The translations under genes were made by a program, and so were the position numbers. Under the pieces are notes generated by a model that worked only from the letters and a program-made list of their open reading frames with translations, was not told where the DNA came from and did not search any database. From the IMG/VR virus record IMGVR_UViG_3300032462_000127, positions 1-20,389 of that record: 20,389 nt of DNA. The stretch is one strand, 5' to 3'. The stretch is from a virus. Positions 554-17,182 of this stretch are shown here, one piece after another; positions within the stretch are counted from its first letter, which is position 1, and each line of letters begins with the position of its first letter.

Positions 554-2062
554 ATGGATCAATTCTTCAATCTGTTGCAACATCAGAAGGGCATCTGGGC
601 TGGTCAAAGTTTTAAGCTGTTACCGTGGCAACACCATTTGCTCGCATCGCTAATATGTTGGAAACGCATTGATGGAACGCGTCGTTTCCGACAGGCTTAC
701 ATTGAAGTTCCGCGCAAGAATGGTAAGAGCACGCTTGTATCAGGCCTCGCGCTTTACATGTTGCTGTGTGATCGTGAGCCGGGTGCTGAGGTGTATTGCT
801 GTGCGTCGGCGCGTGATCAGGCTGCAATCGTAGGTGATGCGTGTCGGCAAATGGCTCAAGGTTCTCCAGTGCTATCTAGTCGAGTTGAGATATTTCGCAA
901 TGTGATCACGCATGGGAATAGCAAACTAGAAATCCTGTCTAGTGATTCTGGAACCAAACACGGAAAGAATGCGAGTTGTTTGATATTTGATGAAACGCAC
1001 ACTTTTCCAAACAGAGAACTGTATGACGCAATGGCTACATCCCAGGGTGCTCGCGCTCAACCGCTAAACATTTCAATCACCACAGCAGGCCACGACCGCG
1101 AATCATTGTGCTGGGAATTGCATTCATACGCAGAGAAGGTGCGAGATGGAATTGTTGACGATCACGCATTCCTACCGTGCCTATTTTCTGCAAACATTGA
1201 TGCGGATTGGAAAGATCCGAAGGTTTGGCGCAAGTGCAACCCATCGCTGGGCGTAACTATTCACGAAGACTTTTTAACTGCTGAATGTGAAAAGGCAAAA
1301 GAAATTTCTGGATTCGAAACTACATTTCGTCAACTCTATTTATGCCAGTGGACTCAATCCAAGCGCACATGGATCACCGCGGATTCTTGGAATAAATGCG
1401 AATCAAGCACGGCCGATAAAGATTCTCTTCGGGGTCGTGAATGTTATTTAGGTTTAGATCTTTCCACTAATACGGATCTAACGGCATTGGCCTTGATCTT
1501 CCCAAATTCCAATGGCAGCGTAGATGTTTTAACTCAGGCTTGGTGCCCCGAGGAGGGCGTATTGCGCAGGAGTCGCAGCGATCGCGCACCCTACGATGTG
1601 TGGGTACGCAAGGGGCATTTAATATCTACACCTGGATCAGTTGTAGATTACGATTTTGTTGCGGATTACATCAGACAATGTTGCGTTCTCTATGAGGTGA
1701 AATCTGTCGGCTACGATCCGTGGAATGCAACGCAACTAAGCACGGGTTTGTACACCGAGGGTGTACCAATGATCGAAGTTCGTCAGGGCTATCGCACACT
1801 GTCTGAGCCATCAAAAAAACTTGAGGCATTGGTGGTTAGTAAAAAATTAAGACACAATGGAAACGATCTGTTAAACTGGTGTGTAAGCAATGCGGTGATT
1901 GACACAGATCCTGCGGGCAATATAAAGCCAAGCAAAGCAACCAGCACCGAGCGCATCGACGCGCTTGCTGCGTTAGTGACTGCATTGGCTGCGTGGATGC
2001 ACAAAGAAAATACTAATTCCGGACCATCGGTCTATGAAGAAAGAGATTTAACATGGCTCTAA
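554..2062 (+). CDS. terL: Terminase large subunit (ATPase-nuclease)
   Basis: Packaging motor that cuts concatemeric DNA and pumps it through the portal using ATP. The N-terminal ATPase half shows a Walker A motif PRKNGKST (residues 53-60), a Walker B LIFDE (143-147) and a coupling-type segment ISITTAG (173-179). The C-terminal RNase H-like nuclease half has candidate metal-binding aspartates in GLDLS (D302), GYDPW (D388) and RIDALAA (D469). The HQKGIWAG and LLPWQ blocks near the start are typical of the Terminase_1 (PF03354) group. The 502-residue product is slightly short because the only ATG falls inside the usual N-terminal block. A weak AGAG Shine-Dalgarno lies about nine bases upstream. 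The stop overlaps the portal start by ten bases. Confidence 0.95.
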   Translation: MDQFFNLLQHQKGIWAGQSFKLLPWQHHLLASLICWKRIDGTRRFRQAYIEVPRKNGKSTLVSGLALYMLLCDREPGAEVYCCASARDQAAIVGDACRQMAQGSPVLSSRVEIFRNVITHGNSKLEILSSDSGTKHGKNASCLIFDETHTFPNRELYDAMATSQGARAQPLNISITTAGHDRESLCWELHSYAEKVRDGIVDDHAFLPCLFSANIDADWKDPKVWRKCNPSLGVTIHEDFLTAECEKAKEISGFETTFRQLYLCQWTQSKRTWITADSWNKCESSTADKDSLRGRECYLGLDLSTNTDLTALALIFPNSNGSVDVLTQAWCPEEGVLRRSRSDRAPYDVWVRKGHLISTPGSVVDYDFVADYIRQCCVLYEVKSVGYDPWNATQLSTGLYTEGVPMIEVRQGYRTLSEPSKKLEALVVSKKLRHNGNDLLNWCVSNAVIDTDPAGNIKPSKATSTERIDALAALVTALAAWMHKENTNSGPSVYEERDLTWL

Positions 2063-3735
2063 TTGATCTACTAAAGAGATATCTAGGTTCGCAGCCACCA
2101 CGCTCAGACTATGAGGACAATATCCCGATAGGTCAAACGCTTGGAGGATCAATACAATCATATGTACAAGCGCATTCTTACACTGGTGAATCAATCACAC
2201 CACACCGAGCAATGGAGGCTCCGAGTGTATTCAGTTGTGTAAACTTAATCAGCAGCAGCGTTGCACGATTGGAATGGCAAATACTCCGAGAGAATCCCGA
2301 GGGCAAAATCAATGAGCCATCACACCCACTGTACAATTTGTTGAATACTGAATGGAGTGATGATGTCGGCGCCATGCAAGGCAAGGAATTGCTGTTGCAA
2401 TCCGCTTTACTCTCTGGGAACGGGTACGCCTACATTCATCGAGATGCTCGCGGGGTTCCAGTTGCGCTTGAACCAATACGCGCAGATTACATCCAAATGT
2501 ACCGCGACGGTGAAAATCAACCGTACTATCAGGTTTATGGTGGAAAATACACGGGCACAGACACCGAGAAAGTTTCCAAGAAATTCCGGGCCTACGATGT
2601 TTTCCATCTGGTGGGCCCGTCGAGTGAGGGGCTGCTTGGAATCCCACCAATTCATCGCATGCGTGATTTGATCGGGCTTGAGTTAGTCATCTCAGAATAT
2701 GTCACTCGGTTTTATGCAAATAACGCCGTACCAAGTGGAACCCTGAGCATGCCCGGCAAACTTTCACCAGAGGCATCAAAGCGATTGCGGGAAGCGTGGA
2801 CTGCTGCGCACGGAGGTGCTAGTCGTGCAGGTCGCGTTGCAGTGCTGGAAGATGGGTTGAAATATCAACAGTTGAGTAGCACGATGAAGGAAAATGACTT
2901 GATTGAGATGCGTCGGTATTGCAGACAGCAAATTGCTGCAGCGTTTCAGGTGCCTAGTCATAAAATTGGTGACTCCGATGGAACTTCCTACAACTCAGCC
3001 GAACAGGCTGATAGCGAATTTGTTAAACACACTTTGTCAGGATGGGCGCAACGATTAGAGCAAGAGGCCAGTAGAAAATTAATTGTGCGCGGTCAGCCGT
3101 ATTGCACACGCATCTCATTTGATTCTTTGCTGCGAGCTGATATGTCTACGAGATATGCAGCGTATGCAGTTGCAGTTACGAATGGATTGCTAACACCCAA
3201 TGAATGCCGCGCATTGGAGGGTCGCCCAGCGATGGAGGGTGGTAATGCAATTCGCGTACCGCTAAACACAACGGCAGCAAGCAGTGCGCAGGCACAGCCA
3301 GACGCAGTGCCTGCTGTTCCTGCTAGTGTAGATGTTGCACCAGTTGAGATGTTGAGCAGTGCAACTGATATTGCACTAGCGGTAATCAAGCCGGCGGTGC
3401 AAGCAGCATTTGCTCGCAACATCAACAAAGTTACTGAGTATTTAGTAAAGCAACGCACACAATCCAAACTAGATAAGTGGCATCCACCGATTGAAGATCT
3501 GCACGCTGAATTGCGAGCCTGCATCGTCGGGCTAGGCAGTGTGCTCGATGCGGAAACTTCACTAGCAACATTGGATGCATACAGCGTCGGGCACGCGGGA
3601 ATGCTTAGGCAGAGCGTCGGTGCAATTGCTGATCTGTCAACGGTGTTTGAGCAGTGGGAAAAAATTCCAGTTGCAGCCACCGAGGAACTTTTGAAATTAA
3701 TAAACACAGGAGAAAACAATGAAAAACGAAATTAG
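2053..3735 (+). CDS. Portal protein, HK97 family, with long C-terminal extension
   Basis: Forms the ring at the unique head vertex through which DNA enters and leaves. The core (residues 1 to about 400) carries HK97-type portal blocks: SSVARLEWQI, SGNGYAYIHRDARGVPVAL, the SSEGLLGIPPIHRMRDLIGL segment, RFYANNAVPSGTL, and the RRYCRQQIAAAFQVPSHKIGD stretch followed by YNSAEQADSEF. After LTPNECRALEGRPAM the usual protein ends soon. Here it continues about 155 residues through an Ala/Pro linker into a predicted helical domain of unknown role, giving 560 residues. It overlaps the large terminase gene upstream and the protease gene downstream, which suggests translational coupling. Confidence 0.93.
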   Translation: MALIDLLKRYLGSQPPRSDYEDNIPIGQTLGGSIQSYVQAHSYTGESITPHRAMEAPSVFSCVNLISSSVARLEWQILRENPEGKINEPSHPLYNLLNTEWSDDVGAMQGKELLLQSALLSGNGYAYIHRDARGVPVALEPIRADYIQMYRDGENQPYYQVYGGKYTGTDTEKVSKKFRAYDVFHLVGPSSEGLLGIPPIHRMRDLIGLELVISEYVTRFYANNAVPSGTLSMPGKLSPEASKRLREAWTAAHGGASRAGRVAVLEDGLKYQQLSSTMKENDLIEMRRYCRQQIAAAFQVPSHKIGDSDGTSYNSAEQADSEFVKHTLSGWAQRLEQEASRKLIVRGQPYCTRISFDSLLRADMSTRYAAYAVAVTNGLLTPNECRALEGRPAMEGGNAIRVPLNTTAASSAQAQPDAVPAVPASVDVAPVEMLSSATDIALAVIKPAVQAAFARNINKVTEYLVKQRTQSKLDKWHPPIEDLHAELRACIVGLGSVLDAETSLATLDAYSVGHAGMLRQSVGAIADLSTVFEQWEKIPVAATEELLKLINTGENNEKRN

Positions 3736-4243
3736 AACAACAGGCGTAACGCAATCAGCTGGTGCATTGCGAGTGCGCGGATATGCAGTTACATGGGCCG
3801 CCTATGACATGGGATCCGAATTGGAACGCATAGATCCGAACGCATTCGATCGGGCCCTCGAAGATCCGGGAGATATTGCACTGCTGTGGAATCATGATAG
3901 CGGTAAACCATTAGCTCGCGTTCGCGCCGGCAACCTGAGACTATTTGCGGATGCTACTGGCCTCGGATTTGAGGCAACATTGCCAGATACAGCGACTGCG
4001 AGAGAGGCCCACGCTCTGGTGCAAAGTGGAGTGGTAAGCCAGTGCTCATTTGGGTTTATGGTACGAAGGGAAACCTACGAAAAGGGCGATGGTAAAAAAT
4101 CCGTGCGTGTGATTATGGATGCAGATTTGTTGGAAATTTCCCTAGTAACATTTCCGGCTAACCCCACAACGAGTGTTGAGGCTCGCGCAGCCGAAGCAAC
4201 CCGTATTAAGACTCGGAAGATTGTATTATTTCCGGAATACTGA
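3719..4243 (+). CDS. Prohead protease, HK97 family
   Basis: Serine protease that removes the capsid delta domain during head maturation. The 174-residue sequence shows the family's catalytic histidine context (LLWNHD, H59), the nucleophile context (QCSFGF, S110) and the conserved LLEISLVTFPANP segment (residues 137-149). The N-terminal GYAVTW and the IDPNAFDRAL block are also typical. The start lies inside the end of the portal gene and is served by an AGGAGA Shine-Dalgarno at 3708-3713. The gene is followed by a 220-bp non-coding leader rather than running straight into the capsid gene, which is unusual for this module. Confidence 0.94.
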   Translation: MKNEIRTTGVTQSAGALRVRGYAVTWAAYDMGSELERIDPNAFDRALEDPGDIALLWNHDSGKPLARVRAGNLRLFADATGLGFEATLPDTATAREAHALVQSGVVSQCSFGFMVRRETYEKGDGKKSVRVIMDADLLEISLVTFPANPTTSVEARAAEATRIKTRKIVLFPEY

Positions 4244-4250
4244 TATGCCC

Positions 4251-4278
4251 TTGACATAGGATTAAAATCATATACTAT
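4251..4278 (+). promoter_or_regulatory. Putative sigma70-like promoter ahead of first capsid gene
   Basis: A perfect TTGACA -35 box at 4251-4256 is followed after 16 bases by TACTAT (4273-4278, four of six matches to TATAAT). An overlapping TATACT at 4271-4276 matches better (five of six), but its 14-base spacing is short. The site lies just after the protease stop codon. It would produce a transcript with a leader of about 180 bases before the capsid start at 4464. Confidence 0.55.
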
Positions 4279-4299
4279 ACCAACAACTTAATATTGCCG

Positions 4300-4463
4300 C
4301 GACGAGCGAGCTGCGCCTAGTGCGTGCTCGACTCGAAGCGAGCGAATCTCCGTGATGCTCTAGTAGCGCACTGATTCGAGCAACTGGTTTTTTTCGACGA
4401 ACACCAACTTGCTTGATCGTGCGTTTTTTTATGCAGATTAAGCGATCATAAAGGGAATCAAAC
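4300..4463 (+). ncRNA. Structured 5' leader of first capsid gene, possible pseudoknot
   Basis: This non-coding stretch contains several complementary blocks. AGTGCG (4319-4324) pairs with CGCACT (4367-4372), and CGAATC (4343-4348) pairs with the immediately following GATTCG (4373-4378). Together these form the crossing topology of an H-type pseudoknot with stacked stems. A small hairpin GCTCG (4326-4330) with CGAGC (4339-4343) could form inside or compete. Runs of seven T at 4388-4394 and 4424-4430 follow, and the capsid Shine-Dalgarno (AAGGGA, 4450-4455) comes last. The arrangement suggests attenuation or translation control, but this is inferred from sequence complementarity only. Confidence 0.4.
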
Positions 4464-5600
4464 ATGAGATTAGATCCATCTTCAGACGAGTATCGCCAAC
4501 TATTTTCACTGTATTTGCGTCGCGGTTCTGTAGGCATGACTGATGCTGAAGCGCGTGCAATTTCATCTACTAGCGGTGGCACAACCATCATCCCAACAAC
4601 CTACTCCAACATGTTTATGGAGGAATTGGGCAACGATGAAATCATTGGAAAAGTTACAAAATTCAACACATCTACAAACACCTTCAATCTAACTGTAATT
4701 ACACCAGTTGGTAGCGGTGGATTTAGTGTTCAAAAGAATCCTGGCGAGGCTGGGACTTTAATTGACGCAACAACATCACAAACAACCGTAACACCCCCAG
4801 TATTTGAATTACCGGGAACTAGCAACACAGGCTCAACAAACGCTGCGCTCACATTGAAACGCCAAAGCGTTATGGTGAAGGTCAGTCGTGAATTGCTAGA
4901 GGATTCTGCTGTGCAAGGCGAAGCGGGTGTTGAGCGCATTATTTTGCGTCAAGCTGCTCAGGACATTGCTGACACCGTAAGCAAACAAATTTTAGTAGGC
5001 AATGCAACTGATTCAATTACTGCTGGAACTACATCAGCGGTTGGCAGTGATTCTTGTCACGGAATTTTTAACACCTGTCGCCGATATGGGAGAGCATTTG
5101 GAACTTCAGCTTTAACTGTCGGCGGCTCTTTAGATTCAAGTGCAATAAGAAGCTCTTTACAAGCATTTATTTTTGGTTTTACTGTTCCAACAATTTTACC
5201 AGCACAATACTGGCGCAGATCTAGTTTAATTCTTAACGGTCAGCTTGGTCGCAGCGGTTCAGGTGCTCACGGATTAAATTTATGTGCTGCAGCAACTTCT
5301 CAACAGGCAATTGCACTGGGTTCCAAGGATCGCTACATGTTTGGTCTTCCATGGACACTTGCAGACATGAGCGTTGGAAATACAGGTACAAGCGCAGTTT
5401 CATTAGGCAACGAACCTATGGCGTTGCTCTGTGATCTCAGCAGATACATGTTGGTTACAGCAAGCGATGGTGTGGCTGTGACAAGACTGAATGAAACTTA
5501 TGCAAATACAGATGAGGTTGCATTTGTAGTCAGTTTGCGATGCGCAGGCGTGCTTGCAGATGTAAACGCAGCTATTGCGCTTGGCTTAACAATCACTTGA
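4464..5600 (+). CDS. HK97-fold major capsid protein, first copy, without delta domain
   Basis: A capsid subunit of the HK97 fold, 378 residues. The N-terminal EYRQLFSLYLRRG...EARAISSTSGGTTIIP aligns with the segment of the second capsid protein that follows its scaffolding domain (ELTRAWENYYRLG...EIRALSEASGGDTLAP). The protein therefore begins where mature capsid would begin. Further family marks are VKVSRELLEDS, the GLPWTLADMS segment and the C-terminal RLNETYANTDEVAF. It has its own promoter, leader and Shine-Dalgarno (AAGGGA). Its middle uses noticeably more AT-rich codons than the second copy. It could be the main shell protein, a vertex or minor subunit, or an alternative capsid; sequence alone does not decide. 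Confidence 0.88.
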   Translation: MRLDPSSDEYRQLFSLYLRRGSVGMTDAEARAISSTSGGTTIIPTTYSNMFMEELGNDEIIGKVTKFNTSTNTFNLTVITPVGSGGFSVQKNPGEAGTLIDATTSQTTVTPPVFELPGTSNTGSTNAALTLKRQSVMVKVSRELLEDSAVQGEAGVERIILRQAAQDIADTVSKQILVGNATDSITAGTTSAVGSDSCHGIFNTCRRYGRAFGTSALTVGGSLDSSAIRSSLQAFIFGFTVPTILPAQYWRRSSLILNGQLGRSGSGAHGLNLCAAATSQQAIALGSKDRYMFGLPWTLADMSVGNTGTSAVSLGNEPMALLCDLSRYMLVTASDGVAVTRLNETYANTDEVAFVVSLRCAGVLADVNAAIALGLTIT

Positions 5601-5611
5601 TAAATTATTTA

Positions 5612-5638
5612 AGACACCCACCGCTGCGGTGAGTGTCT
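5612..5638 (+). promoter_or_regulatory. Hairpin between the two capsid genes
   Basis: AGACAC (5612-5617) and CACCG (5619-5623) pair with CGGTG (5627-5631) and GTGTCT (5633-5638) around a CTG loop, with one C-A mismatch. The stem begins 11 bases after the first capsid stop. No T-run follows, so it is more likely an RNA-stability, processing or partial-termination element than a full intrinsic terminator. Confidence 0.55.
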
Positions 5639-5698
5639 AGCAGATCGCGTTGATTTGCAGAACTCACGCAGCAAAACAAACAGAAGGAAACTTTTACT

Positions 5699-6955
5699 AT
5701 GGCAAGCGAAACTTACAAAACATTGGTTGAAAGAATGGGCGCGGTTTACGCGGAACTCAAGGCGTTAGTTGATGGAGCAAACGCTACCGACGGCGGCATG
5801 GATCCAGCAGCTGAGCAAAAGTACTCTAGCCTCAAGGCTCAGTACGCAAGCTTAACTGCACAGCGTCAGCGCAATGAGGAGTTGATGGGCATGGAGCAAG
5901 GCGCCAAGTTTGATGCTCCAGAGGCGCCAGCACTCATTACTCGCGCAACTGGTGGCGAGTATCGTCGTCCAACCTACGGATACAAGACCACAACAAGCAG
6001 TCCGGAACTAACTCGCGCTTGGGAAAATTACTACCGACTGGGCGAGCACACCAATCCAGGCGATATGCGCGAGATCCGGGCACTCAGCGAGGCATCTGGC
6101 GGAGACACTTTAGCTCCAATTGAATACCACAATCAATTGGCTGCAAAAATGAAGACGATGACTGCTGTTCGTCAGGTTTCTAAGGTTATACAGGTGGGTT
6201 CTTTTAGCCGCGAAATCGCGATTGAATCGGTAACCGGAACTGCAAACTGGACTGCAGAGGCTGGCACATTTTCAGAATCTGGATCGACATTTGGCAAAAT
6301 CACATTGACACCTAGAAAACTCACTGGACTGCTCAAGGTTTCTAACGAGCTCATCGAGGATGCTCCCGCTCGTGGTGCGGGTTTTTCGATCGAATCAATA
6401 CTTGTAGAGCAGTTTGCTCGAATGTTTGCGCAGGCCGAGGAGCTTGGTTTCCTGGCATCGTCCGCAGTCACCAACGGGCCGCAATCTCCGATCATGGCCC
6501 AGACCACGGGGAATGATAAAACCTGTGCGTCTGCAACCACCTTCACCGCTGCCGAAGTTATCGCGTGGATTTACACACTGCCCCGCCAATATCGTCAAAA
6601 TGCAAGCATCATCACAAGCGATGCGGTACTCGGTGTTTTGCGCGGGCTTGCTTCAATTGCGAGTGGTACTGTTAATTATTTCTGGCAGAACAGCAATGCT
6701 CTTGGCGAGCCTGATCGTCTGATGGGGATACCTGTTTATGCATCGGCTGCTATGCCTGCTATGACTACGGGAAACAAGGTCGCCGTTATCGGCGACTTTG
6801 GCAATTATTGCGTTTTGGCTGAACGCAGCGCGTATTCGATGCGCGTACTCAAGGAGCTGTTTGCGACTAACAACCAGACTGGATTTATCTCAACTAGCAG
6901 ACTCGATTGCACCGTTACTCAACCAAGCGCGTTTTCTTATCTGACAATGGCATAA
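5699..6955 (+). CDS. HK97-fold major capsid protein, second copy, with delta domain
   Basis: A capsid subunit of 418 residues with the standard HK97 arrangement. Residues 1 to about 75 are a charged, helical delta (scaffolding) domain (ERMGAVYAELKALVDG, SLKAQYASLTAQRQRNEEL). A linker follows, then the segment before the mature shell domain (ELTRAWENYYRLG...EIRALSEASGGDTLAP). The shell domain carries LLKVSNELIEDAPA and the LMGIPVYASAAMPAM segment, and ends in RLDCTVTQPSAFSYLTMA. The protease encoded upstream would be expected to cleave off the delta domain. A strong AGAAGGAA Shine-Dalgarno (5682-5689) precedes the start. It is a distant relative, not a recent duplicate, of the capsid gene upstream. 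Confidence 0.94.
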   Translation: MASETYKTLVERMGAVYAELKALVDGANATDGGMDPAAEQKYSSLKAQYASLTAQRQRNEELMGMEQGAKFDAPEAPALITRATGGEYRRPTYGYKTTTSSPELTRAWENYYRLGEHTNPGDMREIRALSEASGGDTLAPIEYHNQLAAKMKTMTAVRQVSKVIQVGSFSREIAIESVTGTANWTAEAGTFSESGSTFGKITLTPRKLTGLLKVSNELIEDAPARGAGFSIESILVEQFARMFAQAEELGFLASSAVTNGPQSPIMAQTTGNDKTCASATTFTAAEVIAWIYTLPRQYRQNASIITSDAVLGVLRGLASIASGTVNYFWQNSNALGEPDRLMGIPVYASAAMPAMTTGNKVAVIGDFGNYCVLAERSAYSMRVLKELFATNNQTGFISTSRLDCTVTQPSAFSYLTMA

Positions 6956-6968
6956 TCATTCACGCAAC

Positions 6969-6996
6969 CCTCCGCACGCAGAAATGCGTGCGGAGG
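6969..6996 (+). promoter_or_regulatory. Perfect 12-bp hairpin with GAAA loop covering a ribosome binding site
   Basis: A perfect 12-bp stem (6969-6980 with 6985-6996) closes on a GAAA tetraloop. It begins 13 bases after the second capsid stop. The 3' arm contains GGAGG (6992-6996), the only good Shine-Dalgarno for the ATG at 7002, so folding would hide it. Only ATTTC follows, so a role as an intrinsic terminator would be weak; RNA end protection, processing or translation control are alternatives. Confidence 0.7.
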
Positions 6997-7001
6997 ATTT
7001 C

Positions 7002-7208
7002 ATGCTCAACATCAAGATATTGCAATCCATAGAAACCGATACCACCATCCACGCGGTGGGCGATGTTATTTGCGTTGATGAACGCACCGCTACCGAATGG
7101 CTGTCGCTGGGGTTTGCGGAGCGTGCGGAAACACATCCAGATCAACCAGAATCATGCGTGCGCGGCGCGGCATGCTGTAAGGCCGTTCGTAGGGGTGCGC
7201 AGCGATGA
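7002..7208 (+). CDS. Small hypothetical protein in the head-tail connector region
   Basis: A 68-residue protein of unknown function. The start at 7002 is chosen because GGAGG lies five bases upstream; an in-frame ATG at 6984 falls inside the hairpin loop and has no ribosome binding site. The N-terminal part (MLNIKILQSI...HAVGDVICVDERTATEWLSLGFAERAE) resembles small proteins often placed between capsid and connector genes. The C-terminal part holds three cysteines (CVRGAACC) and a basic end. Its stop overlaps the next start in an ATGA junction, so the two are probably co-translated. Possibly a minor head or connector component. Confidence 0.7.
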   Translation: MLNIKILQSIETDTTIHAVGDVICVDERTATEWLSLGFAERAETHPDQPESCVRGAACCKAVRRGAQR

Positions 7209-7840
7209 ACCTGCGCAGCAACCTTGTGGACAACGGTGCGGTATCAGCTGTAATTACAACCGCTGATTTCAAAACGCATGCACGAATTTATCACTCGCAG
7301 GATGACACCTACATCGATACGCTTATAGTTTCATCAACTCAGGCAATCGAGCACGCTACGCGCAGGGCGTTTGTAAACAGATCGTTTATATACACGCTTG
7401 TAGATTTCCCATCACCGGGTTTCCCATCATCCATCGAGTCTACCGGGTCAGCAAATGGTGAGATTATTTTGCCGCGCTCGCCGATGAGCAGTATCACCAG
7501 TATTGTGTATAACAATACATCGAGTGTTGCAACTACGCTGATTGAGAACACTGGCTACTATTCATACTCAATTAATGGCGTAGGTAGAATTGTTGCACCT
7601 AGTTCAACGGCGTGGCCGCAAGTGGAAGATTTGGGCAGACCAGCCGTAACAATTACATTTATTGCCGGCTACGGATCATCTGCGAGCAGCACTCCAGCAG
7701 CACTGCGTCACGCGGTAATGCTAATGGCTACGCATCTGTATGAAAATCGTCAACCCGTAAACATTGGCAACACTGTCAACGATATTCCCAAAACGGTTGA
7801 CGCTTTGATTGCACAATATCACACTGGAGATTACGCATGA
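7205..7840 (+). CDS. Head-tail connector protein (gp6/phiE125 gp8-like)
   Basis: Probable connector that docks under the portal ring. The N-terminal segment (ITTADFKTHARIYHSQDDTYIDTLIVSSTQAIEHATRRAFVNRSF) matches the helical start common to gp6-like and phiE125 gp8-like adaptors: a short stretch of D-D-x-x-I-x-x-L-I followed by A-x-x-x-x-E-x-x-T-x-R. The rest has the usual ILPRSPMSSITSIVY block and an AVMLMATHLYENRQ helix near the end. The length of 211 residues is typical. It overlaps both neighbours by four bases (ATGA). Confidence 0.85.
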   Translation: MNLRSNLVDNGAVSAVITTADFKTHARIYHSQDDTYIDTLIVSSTQAIEHATRRAFVNRSFIYTLVDFPSPGFPSSIESTGSANGEIILPRSPMSSITSIVYNNTSSVATTLIENTGYYSYSINGVGRIVAPSSTAWPQVEDLGRPAVTITFIAGYGSSASSTPAALRHAVMLMATHLYENRQPVNIGNTVNDIPKTVDALIAQYHTGDYA

Positions 7841-14329: not shown

Positions 14330-17182
14330 ATGAGCATGATGCAAGCAGGTTGCTGTTGCGGTGCTGGCGGACTCACTCATGTTCGTGCAGGGTGGTATCA
14401 CTATTCAGTTATTGAAGCCAGGGTTGCATACACCTACATTTCTGGTGGTGTTTGTTGCACTGGAGGATACTGGACTGAAAATGCACCGATGATTGCTCCA
14501 GCTGGGCATCCGCTAGCGCAACCATCCATTCTCGCTGATGTGGTTGATCTGGAATGTGGTGCCTATCACACGATTGCAAGGCTTGCAGATAATTCAATTG
14601 TGGCGTGGGGATTAAACCACAAGGGCCAGTGCGATGTTCCGTCTGGATTGCAATACGGTGCTGGATCACCACACGCAAAGAAGGGTTTAATCATATCCCT
14701 GCACTGCGGATACAGCACATCTGCTGTAATGTTTAGCGATGGAACTGTGTTGTGCTGGGGTGAGTCCGCAGTATCGAGCACTGTAAATGCATGGACTGAT
14801 CTGATGATAAGTCCTATCCAGATGATAGATCAGGATGGAAACACTTCGGGCGGGACATTTGATTACGATAATGTTGATCCGACGAACACCGCATATGCTA
14901 AGCCATTGTTTCCACCGTCTACTTGGAATCGGAACAAAGATGTGTTTGGTCAGATTTCACACAGCGGATTAGGAAACTACCCCAAGTTTGATCTTGGTTG
15001 CGAAACAAATCAAATGTACCCGCTAAACATGAGTCTAGGTGTTTCATGTTTGCCCGCTGCGAGCAACAACACCGAATCTTGCAATGTGTGTTCATCCAAC
15101 ACACCGCCCTATGACGCTATCGCGCTTGGAGTACCCTCAGCAGTCGGGAATAACTCATCATGCCTTACATGTGATTCAGTAGTTGTTGCGTCTGATTTCG
15201 CTGTGGGTATGCAGAGAACAGGGCAAATCATTACGAGCAGGGCAACCAACCACAAAACGGGTTCAGCAACAAATTGCAGGGATTGTTCCAACGACAATCG
15301 CGTACGCAATTTTCAAAGCTTGTTTGTTGATTATTCAAAAGACTGCTATCAAGCATTCACAATAACTAAGCCAGCATTTCCAAATTCAACTTGCCCGACT
15401 TGCTCAGTAAGTCCTGCACGAAATTACACATTTTCTGGAGGTATTGCATCTAGTGATTGGCTTAATTTCTGCGGAGCAGTAAAATGGTGTGCTGGAAATT
15501 TTGCTTTTCCGTGCCCGTCAGCGCAATGCTGGATGAATAGCGTATCTATTCCAAATTGCAATTGCTGTTGTGACGCGTATACTTTGGACGGAACATTTCC
15601 CGCATTTCAAAATTGCACCGATTGTTCATCAACATCTGCACCCGCTGTTTGGAAGAGATTCGATTATGTTGATGCAAATCCATGTGAATCGGGCAACAAC
15701 GCCGAGGGAACTGGGTGCATGGGAGCCGAACACGATTGGGAGAACTATGACCCCAATTGGGCGAAGGCTTGGGGTGCATCGGCTAATTCTGATGGCTCAG
15801 CGACAACGGTATCGGCTGGCAGTATGTTTACCGCAGGATTGCAGGTCAAATACTCGGGAGGTGCAGTGCCTGCGTGGAATGTGAATGCGTCGTGTCAGTT
15901 TGCATATGGTTGGAATACCCTATTTACCCCACAAAACAACATACACATATGCGGTGCTGATACTTCACCGAGTTACAAATGTAATCCGCAGCAATCAATT
16001 ACCGCAGTATGCACAGACAGATTTCCATCAACTGATGGAGGATCTACTGGCAATGCGTCGTACTATTGTGCTGGTAAGGATAATTCATTAGGCTCAGATT
16101 TTTGGTATCCAAAACAAATGTTTGCAAGCACATTAGTATGCGGTACAAATTCTGCGCATTGGTTAACGCAAGGCTTGCAAGTACCCGAACAATTCTTTTC
16201 TGGCGCAAATAATAGTGACGATGGTTGTTCAGCAGTCTCACCACAATTGCAGTTACATGACTGCACCGACGCGGCGTATCAACAGCATGAAAATTCTCCG
16301 ATATTTACATCGGCGACGGTGTGGGCTCCAGCAGGTATCTTTTACAACGCAACAGATCTTAATGGAAATTACAACCCCTTTTTAGTTTCTGATTGTCCAG
16401 TTGCAGGGCCAACACAATATGAAAATAAAAACTATGTAATGCCAACCAAGGCGTGGGGGCCGATTTCGTTGGCACTGTATAGCGGATTTGGTACATCGTA
16501 TTTTTCTGAAACTACCGTGTGTGCGCACTATCGAACTGGCACACTAGAAAAATACCCGCCATTTGTCCCCCGCATGATGGGAGATGTGAATGCGTTCATT
16601 TGGTCGTTTGGTGGCGTTGTTGACGGAACATGGGGAATACCACCTGAAAAAAATCTATTCTGCAACAATGATCCGAGTGGTTTAGCCGATCATCCTGAAA
16701 CTATTCCGCACTGTAAAAACTATAACGGAACTGGAAAGGTGCAGGCTGTACCTAACTTCTGTTATACCAATCCGCCGATTTCGATGGCTACCAGCCGAGC
16801 AGCGTGCATGATTGTTGGTGCGGTAACACGACAAATGACTAAATTGGTTGGTGGCTTACCAGTTGCAACTGATCCATCAGATAATCAATATCAGATAGAT
16901 AACTGCTGCAACGGTGTGGAAACAGATTACGATGGTTCAACCGTTTCAGTTGCAATTGATTCATGCGCCGTGTGCCAGATGTCCACGGACACGGTGGAAA
17001 AATTCGGATGCAACCGCAGTCAGAGCAGAATGCTCCATGTTTGGGGATCACTGTACGATCCTTGCCCACCGTGGGCAAGGATCGTTACATCGACCTGGAC
17101 ATGGCCAAGCCATCTAACGGGAACAACAGTCACGGCAACCAGTGCTCAGGGTATCACTACAACCTATCCCCCCAACTGCTAA
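14330..17182 (+). CDS. Giant cysteine-rich protein with RCC1-like blades, putative tail fibre or adhesin
   Basis: A 950-residue protein with about 53 cysteines by hand count. The N-terminal part (residues about 15-145) has RCC1-like beta-propeller blades: VRAGWYHYSVI, then VVDLECGAYHTIARLADNSIVAWGLNHKGQCDVP, then ISLHCGYSTSAVMFSDGTVLCWG. The rest is unlike any family I know. It contains at least six CxxC pairs (CNVC, CLTC, CRDC, CPTC, CTDC, CAVC), mostly in an N/S/T-C-x-x-C-S/D context, plus a C-x-CCC cluster (IPNCNCCCD), many asparagines and aromatic residues. No signal peptide or membrane segment is evident. The place at the end of the tail genes suggests a receptor-binding or fibre protein stabilised by disulfides or metal, an inference from context. 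Confidence 0.65.
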   Translation: MSMMQAGCCCGAGGLTHVRAGWYHYSVIEARVAYTYISGGVCCTGGYWTENAPMIAPAGHPLAQPSILADVVDLECGAYHTIARLADNSIVAWGLNHKGQCDVPSGLQYGAGSPHAKKGLIISLHCGYSTSAVMFSDGTVLCWGESAVSSTVNAWTDLMISPIQMIDQDGNTSGGTFDYDNVDPTNTAYAKPLFPPSTWNRNKDVFGQISHSGLGNYPKFDLGCETNQMYPLNMSLGVSCLPAASNNTESCNVCSSNTPPYDAIALGVPSAVGNNSSCLTCDSVVVASDFAVGMQRTGQIITSRATNHKTGSATNCRDCSNDNRVRNFQSLFVDYSKDCYQAFTITKPAFPNSTCPTCSVSPARNYTFSGGIASSDWLNFCGAVKWCAGNFAFPCPSAQCWMNSVSIPNCNCCCDAYTLDGTFPAFQNCTDCSSTSAPAVWKRFDYVDANPCESGNNAEGTGCMGAEHDWENYDPNWAKAWGASANSDGSATTVSAGSMFTAGLQVKYSGGAVPAWNVNASCQFAYGWNTLFTPQNNIHICGADTSPSYKCNPQQSITAVCTDRFPSTDGGSTGNASYYCAGKDNSLGSDFWYPKQMFASTLVCGTNSAHWLTQGLQVPEQFFSGANNSDDGCSAVSPQLQLHDCTDAAYQQHENSPIFTSATVWAPAGIFYNATDLNGNYNPFLVSDCPVAGPTQYENKNYVMPTKAWGPISLALYSGFGTSYFSETTVCAHYRTGTLEKYPPFVPRMMGDVNAFIWSFGGVVDGTWGIPPEKNLFCNNDPSGLADHPETIPHCKNYNGTGKVQAVPNFCYTNPPISMATSRAACMIVGAVTRQMTKLVGGLPVATDPSDNQYQIDNCCNGVETDYDGSTVSVAIDSCAVCQMSTDTVEKFGCNRSQSRMLHVWGSLYDPCPPWARIVTSTWTWPSHLTGTTVTATSAQGITTTYPPNC
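17055..17085 (+). repeat. Perfect 14-bp inverted repeat inside the cysteine-rich gene
   Basis: ACGATCCTTGCCCA (17055-17068) and its exact reverse complement (17072-17085) are separated by CCG. The repeat lies about 100 bases before the stop codon and encodes YDPCPPWARIV. It would make a very stable RNA hairpin. No T-run follows, so it is not a usual intrinsic terminator. Confidence 0.85.

Follow-up and report, generated by a model that had tools for sequence, protein, structure and literature searches.

Tandem HK97-fold capsid genes in small uncultivated phages: a delta-bearing major capsid protein and a delta-less candidate vertex protein

Why would a small phage encode two different HK97-type capsid proteins side by side? 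The question is raised by IMG/VR virus IMGVR_UViG_3300032462_000127, a record of 20,389 bp that was analysed over its whole length (the window) and in which two such genes, here called MCP1 and MCP2, lie in tandem. The literature searched, which lay mostly outside subscription journals, holds no description of a small siphophage with a pair of HK97-type capsid genes. The answer we favour, at a probability of a little below 0.6, is a two-protein shell with MCP2 in the hexamers and MCP1 in homomeric pentamers, carried by a small-headed, siphophage-like group of about 25 kb.

The window runs from TerS and TerL through portal and S78 protease to MCP1 and MCP2, which follow gaps of 220 nt and 98 nt, respectively, and on through g7 and connector to a head completion protein, tail genes, a YqaJ-type exonuclease and an Erf-like annealing protein (Table 1). 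The virus is also represented by another contig (IMGVR_UViG_3300027976_000208; 24,779 bp), which is identical wherever compared, extends the window by ~4.6 kb upstream and adds a RepB-primase/AAA protein as well as PDDEXK-like and HNH endonucleases. Behind the tail genes, positions 14330-17182 encode a 950-aa protein with RCC1-like repeats (PF13540), possibly the receptor-binding protein.

Table 1. Features of the capsid region and its surroundings (window positions unless a locus is named)
Feature	Position	Strand	Basis or remark
Terminase large subunit	554..2062	+	PF20441 + PF03354
Portal protein	2053..3735	+	PF04860, E 4.9e-91
S78 prohead protease	3719..4243	+	PF04586, E 1.5e-41
Sigma70-type promoter, TTGACA-16-TACTAT, 10/12	4251..4278	+	TTG...A(T)AAT/ACT motif at the same place in all aligned leaders
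Conserved leader RNA	4291..4374	+	covariation; hairpins P1 and P2
Hairpin P1, loop CUAGU	4296-4343	+	part of leader RNA
Hairpin P2, loop CUAGU	4352-4371	+	part of leader RNA
Terminator-like stem	4365..4430	+	5' arm (4365-4375) doubles as P2 3' arm; U-run 4424-4430
MCP1, capsid protein of HK97 fold without delta domain, 378 aa; pentamer (vertex) candidate	4464..5600	+	PF05065, 44.9 bits
Hypervariable segment in the A domain of MCP1, residues ~214-330 (approximate limits)	5103..5453	+	identity profile and model
MCP1-MCP2 intergenic hairpin, 11 pairs, without U-run	5613..5637	+	strong
MCP2, major capsid protein of HK97 fold, 418 aa; hexamer candidate	5699..6955	+	PF05065, 155.9 bits
MCP2 delta domain, N-terminal, about residues 1-97	within 5699..6955	+	model helices 6-67
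g7, small conserved gene	6984..7208	+	lectin/GDSL gene directly behind g7 in spike-bearing relatives
Head-tail connector (gp6-like)	7205..7840	+	PF05135, E 2.4e-10
Lectin-like/GDSL gene, examples	L130:7250-8557, L085:10604-11908, L120:9461-11209, L039:5590-7023		head module

An initial sequence-only reading had placed tandem HK97-type capsid genes at 4464-6955. The coordinates proved exact, and both products pass the PF05065 (Phage_capsid) cut-off of 24.2, MCP1 with E 1.3e-11 and MCP2 with E 1.9e-45. Each also matches PHROG_10 'major head protein', and a Pfam search with MCP1 (E<=0.01) returned no family besides PF05065. That the two sequences are clearly divergent was borne out by direct comparison (24% identity, E 3e-11), and profile-profile comparison aligned them with a probability of 99.9% (E 2.6e-32). 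Since MCP1 columns 10-360 align on MCP2 columns 94-414, MCP1 lacks just the N-terminal ~95-100 residues. This stretch is the delta domain, as had been proposed: MCP1 aligns over its full length to MCP2 from residue ~97, and the MCP2 model begins with two helices (6-29 and 36-67), followed by a disordered linker and then the capsid domain, with no counterpart of this beginning in MCP1.

The reading depended on both proteins adopting the HK97 fold—a check set beforehand—and both predicted models do retrieve HK97-fold shells. At a modest model confidence (pLDDT 69 for the AlphaFold2 model of MCP1, 71 for MCP2), the best PDB matches are all phage shells for MCP1 and HK97-fold shells for MCP2, at a probability of 1.00 in either case. 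The predicted folds match 375 (MCP1) and 390 (MCP2) PDB chains at E<=0.001, of which the best 50 are all HK97-fold shells. With MCP2, the RcGTA capsid was returned by the PDB sequence search (E 1.2e-55) and also came first in the fold search. A hidden delta domain, a mis-called start, a split ORF and a frameshift ahead of MCP1 were considered and rejected: stop codons close all three forward frames across the 220 nt, and no hidden upstream delta frame is present in relatives. All 48 non-redundant MCP1 homologues lack a delta domain and begin 1-8 residues ahead of a common helix (LDRxSEEYRxLFxxYLxRG); a few allow a longer start, without delta-like sequence. Given that no homologue has a delta domain, it is plausible that assembly of MCP1 depends on that of MCP2. 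The pair of capsid genes, as first read, is confirmed as real.

Nor is the pair a one-off. A search for other phages with the same arrangement found it throughout an IMG/VR group, in which MCP1 forms one clade of single origin (support 97/93), apart from MCP2 and from outgroup capsids. Scans of IMG/VR for MCP1 returned 31 loci and later, in one scan, 79; every contig spanning the site has the order protease, a gap of 170-236 nt, MCP1 and MCP2, and the pair is kept down to MCP1 identities of 24-30%. In many genomes MCP2 lies 18-28 nt behind MCP1. Such a spacing is too short for the intergenic hairpin of the window. In one record (L030/L132; IMGVR_UViG_3300045125_000050), frame changes break TerL, portal and MCP2 each, likely a mark of low-quality assembly. 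When the search was based on MCP2 instead, contigs reaching far enough also carried MCP1 with the sole exception of L133, whose protein is 29% identical to MCP2 and groups with single-capsid phages in the tree, and whose contig begins only ~330 nt upstream. MCP1 had no match among the 50,697 phage records of INPHARED (E<=1e-5); divergent MCP1 queries against cultured phages reach only the mature domain of ordinary capsid proteins, and a host search with the MCP1 profile against genome contigs (one scan) gave three ordinary capsid genes and no true MCP1. The curated relatives carry a single capsid gene directly after the protease; a second gene, a long leader and a start without delta domain thus occur together and define the group. 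The source of MCP1 may be either a duplication within the lineage or a capture.

Both genes are under purifying selection, with a median dN/dS of 0.12 for MCP1 and 0.14 for MCP2 over dozens of contigs. As they are also present together in every spanning contig, the suggestion that one is a replaced gene merely being retained is disfavoured. We found no point in favour of the broader idea that MCP1 is a capsid gene in decay or one replaced not long ago, or that it is an artefact of assembly; its intactness in dozens of independent assemblies, its dN/dS of ~0.12 and its single deep origin all speak against this, making it scarcely credible.

The way in which MCP1 varies bears on the capsomers that it might build. 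Among 26 long-class homologues, pairwise identity falls to 0.22-0.45 in the A-domain segment, assigned on the predicted model by its place after the spine helix and ahead of the last long P-domain strand, with limits taken from secondary structure only. It is 0.52 in a block at the N-terminal edge of this segment and 0.62-0.79 in the N-arm, E-loop and P-domain blocks of the same genomes, whose MCP2 proteins contain no comparable hypervariable block. Moreover, the trees conflict: MCP1 of the window groups with L005/L007 and its MCP2 with L014/L047/L093/L094, and L106 combines an MCP2 near those of L007 and L061 with an MCP1 of another class. On these phylogenies, MCP1 is exchanged independently of MCP2. 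Homomeric MCP1 capsomers are favoured because contacts within the capsomer vary freely whereas those to MCP2 neighbours are conserved.

Both proteins might instead be in the shell with no pentamer/hexamer split, MCP1 occupying some or all hexamers, a cap, a portal-proximal ring or mixed irregular capsomers. Family 2B two-component encapsulins do form mixed HK97-fold shells of variable composition (PMC12407261), and MCP1 being the promoter-proximal gene would suit such a role. Mixed capsomers, however, are hard to reconcile with an A domain that varies without matching change in MCP2 and with an MCP1 that is swapped across MCP2 lineages, and in both phage precedents the second protein is found at pentamers; we consider an undivided shell unlikely. 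The evidence computed here fits pentamers or a subset of hexamers alike, and it is by analogy that we would assign MCP1 to the vertices, because the phage precedents (T4 gp24 and SaPIbov5 Ccm) put the second protein there.

A role at the virion surface is suggested by an extra gene between g7 and connector, present in 17 of the 49 non-redundant genomes; the window virus, with its long MCP1, is without it. The product (384-583 aa) has a C-terminal part that is either lectin-like (PHROG_5939, CBM_4_9, Laminin_G_3) or a GDSL hydrolase, and its N-terminus carries a short recurrent peptide, e.g. MSRSNAAAALLFR, MKGNAYVPFMLRRGDGST or MLITWRRESRRTGPGVYG. The gene occurs only alongside one MCP1 clade (SH-aLRT 89 in one tree, 95/89 in another). 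Mapped on the MCP1 tree, its presence requires a single change, as against five for MCP2 and eight for the portal; well supported branches force at least four of these for MCP2 and at least seven for the portal. Complete or near-complete genomes lacking the gene have no spike homologue elsewhere. Block transfer could account for part of the association, and linkage alone is a poor explanation since MCP2 and g7 separate the gene from MCP1. On the simplest reading, the lectin/GDSL protein would attach to MCP1 capsomers as a head spike. In some members, MCP1 type predicts the presence of a sugar-binding or lipase-like surface protein; this tight link to an adhesin gene makes it possible to test whether the head itself contacts the host.

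The shell in question should be small. One record of 25,139 bp (IMGVR_UViG_3300027777_000018; L144+L145) has an exact 99-bp end repeat and therefore represents a complete genome of ~25.0 kb. Fourteen of the 15 records checked for size measure 24.4-27.8 kb and none is longer, and two further contigs, judged directly by their end sequences, share a homologous start immediately ahead of TerS. HK97, which serves as the reference, has a genome of 39.7 kb and a T=7 head. With T number scaling with genome length at an exponent of 0.71 (PMC8814770), 25 kb would correspond to T of roughly 5, a value outside the classical series; a T=4 head, a trihexagonal lattice or an elongated head are possible geometries.

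Between protease and MCP1, all members of the group carry a promoter-like hexamer pair and a conserved transcript. Since the clades do not align in register, RNAalifold on the all-clade leader alignment gave the terminator stem only; two hairpins emerged from a structure-guided subset of 16 sequences. In this alignment, 89% of cells are paired and 12 pairs are changed on both sides, a result reached by 0/500 shuffles, with no slid version coming near. Covariation resides mostly in P1; P2 is nearly invariant within the subset and, by inspection, differs between clades (GCC/GGC, CUC/GAG, GCU/AGC, CGC/GCG). The two hairpins bear similar pentaloops (CUAGU/CUCGU; CUGAC/CCCGA). The leader model (R1) scores 67.2 bits on the window, whose own row is part of the model, and the leader fold has a z of -3.85. 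The terminator stem also covaries in RNAalifold (3/6 pairs changed on both sides), and it shares an arm with P2 in the window and the two best-sampled lineages; two lineages at a greater distance have no clear terminator. A pairing between the P1 loop and the terminator arm was considered first, but just part of the sequences allow it, and the P2/terminator overlap took its place.

Leaders with promoter, hairpins and terminator are also seen at L005, L007, L014, L015 and L070. The leaders of the window and five relatives had no match in Rfam 15 (up to E 1 and 0.5); two eukaryotic miRNA matches elsewhere in the sequences searched arose by chance. An exact IMG/VR scan for a conserved part returned 12 contigs, and those checked all belong to this group. 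In one lineage, the model gave weak matches in the MCP1-MCP2 gap (L070:5674-5764, L072:4766-4856, L075:2051-2141; E 0.2-0.5), which may be chance. The leader would likely act by attenuation or antitermination ahead of the capsid genes; alternatively, it may yield a small RNA ending at the terminator.

With its own promoter and a possible attenuator in front, MCP1 could be dosed conditionally, as would be needed if the phage made its heads both with and without MCP1, as a switch of size or shape, or if MCP1 altered the head size of another element, in the way that Ccm acts on phi12 heads (PMC8569155). Yet the longest contigs (24.4-27.8 kb) reveal no second genome size, and because the promoter and leader precede both genes, and MCP2 follows within 18-28 nt in many genomes, MCP1 and MCP2 would rise together. 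We hold such a switch to be improbable. Its own promoter would equally serve an MCP1 acting outside the virion, as a decoy or by interfering with satellites or phages in the same cell, and satellites are known to use capsid homologues as weapons (PMC8569155). Defence genes are usually patchy, however, and MCP1 is found in every spanning contig, always between protease and MCP2; its conserved N-arm, E-loop and P-domain and the spike association likewise argue against a decoy, which seems quite improbable.

Among the three options first raised for the pair, then, a mixed shell appears to fit best, nothing points to alternative heads, and a replaced but retained gene is disfavoured. In the two-protein shell that we infer, MCP1 and MCP2 would both be shell proteins of the virion. 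MCP2, bringing its own scaffold in the delta domain, would form the hexamers; MCP1, which starts where the mature subunit starts, would form homomeric capsomers of its own, most likely the 11 non-portal pentamers. Curvature would be set by the MCP2 delta domain together with the portal, and MCP1 would join that shell. The A domain of MCP1, at the capsomer centre, would face outward and diversify, and one MCP1 clade probably bears the separate lectin- or GDSL-type spike there. A bolder version can be offered tentatively: a penton-plus-fibre arrangement in a tailed phage, with a scaffold-less pentamer protein that evolves through exchange of its outward A domain or bears an exchangeable lectin/esterase spike, and with a new leader-RNA class—two pentaloop hairpins, the second set against the terminator—governing shell-protein expression.

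Dedicated vertex proteins of the HK97 fold have so far come from T4-like phages and one satellite system. If the two-protein shell is real, the division of labour between pentamers and hexamers would extend beyond the T4 lineage to tailed phages of the smallest size, and to a vertex protein that has no scaffold. How subunits of identical fold are sorted into pentamers versus hexamers is an open question that could then be studied in a compact system; the leader RNA would be a handle on phage control of capsid stoichiometry. The group would then consist of small uncultivated bacterial viruses with a dedicated second HK97-fold shell protein, a kind that is already known.

Among cultured or curated phages, those nearest in TerL (44%), portal and MCP2 (31%) are 'Ca. 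Heliusvirales' and streptococcal phage capsid modules, which differ in having one capsid gene, 14-20 nt behind or overlapping the protease, without a long leader. The closest solved sequence and best fold match to MCP2 is the capsid of the Rhodobacter gene transfer agent (6tb9, 6tba), whose head is small as well but made of a single capsid protein. Family 2B encapsulins resemble the pair in that two HK97-fold shell proteins are encoded together and co-assembled, yet they are non-viral, lack a portal and tile irregularly. For the candidate spike, T4 Hoc, T5 pb10 and phi29 gp8.5 offer a parallel as exchangeable carbohydrate-binding head proteins that aid attachment (PMC7602432). These have Ig-like and other folds and sit at hexamers or quasi-threefold sites, whereas the candidate has a lectin-like or GDSL part and follows the second capsid protein in its distribution.

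With 24% identity to the phi12 CP, SaPIbov5 Ccm provides the pentamers of a small T=4 shell (PMC8569155). It resembles MCP1 as a capsid-protein homologue at this level of identity; unlike MCP1, it is satellite-encoded, redirects helper head size and retains a delta domain of 87 residues. In our pair both genes are the phage's own, and MCP1 lies within a complete terminase-portal-protease-capsid-tail module and has no cleavable delta domain. T4, in turn, has separate scaffold core proteins, a genome of 169 kb and a capsid gene order reversed relative to MCP1-MCP2. Its gp24 is ~20% identical to gp23, loses only 10 residues as against 65, and forms the 11 pentamers (PMC9958956). T4 belongs to another capsid family—with MCP1, the PDB sequence search returned no T4 chain and Pfam PF05065 only—and MCP1 has no residual propeptide. 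As in our pair, however, gp23 and gp24 are neighbouring HK97-fold paralogues, the vertex protein being almost without a propeptide, and MCP1 shares with the gp24 type both its place beside the major capsid protein and the missing propeptide. Because Ccm retains its delta domain, it is gp24 alone that matches the delta-less state of MCP1.
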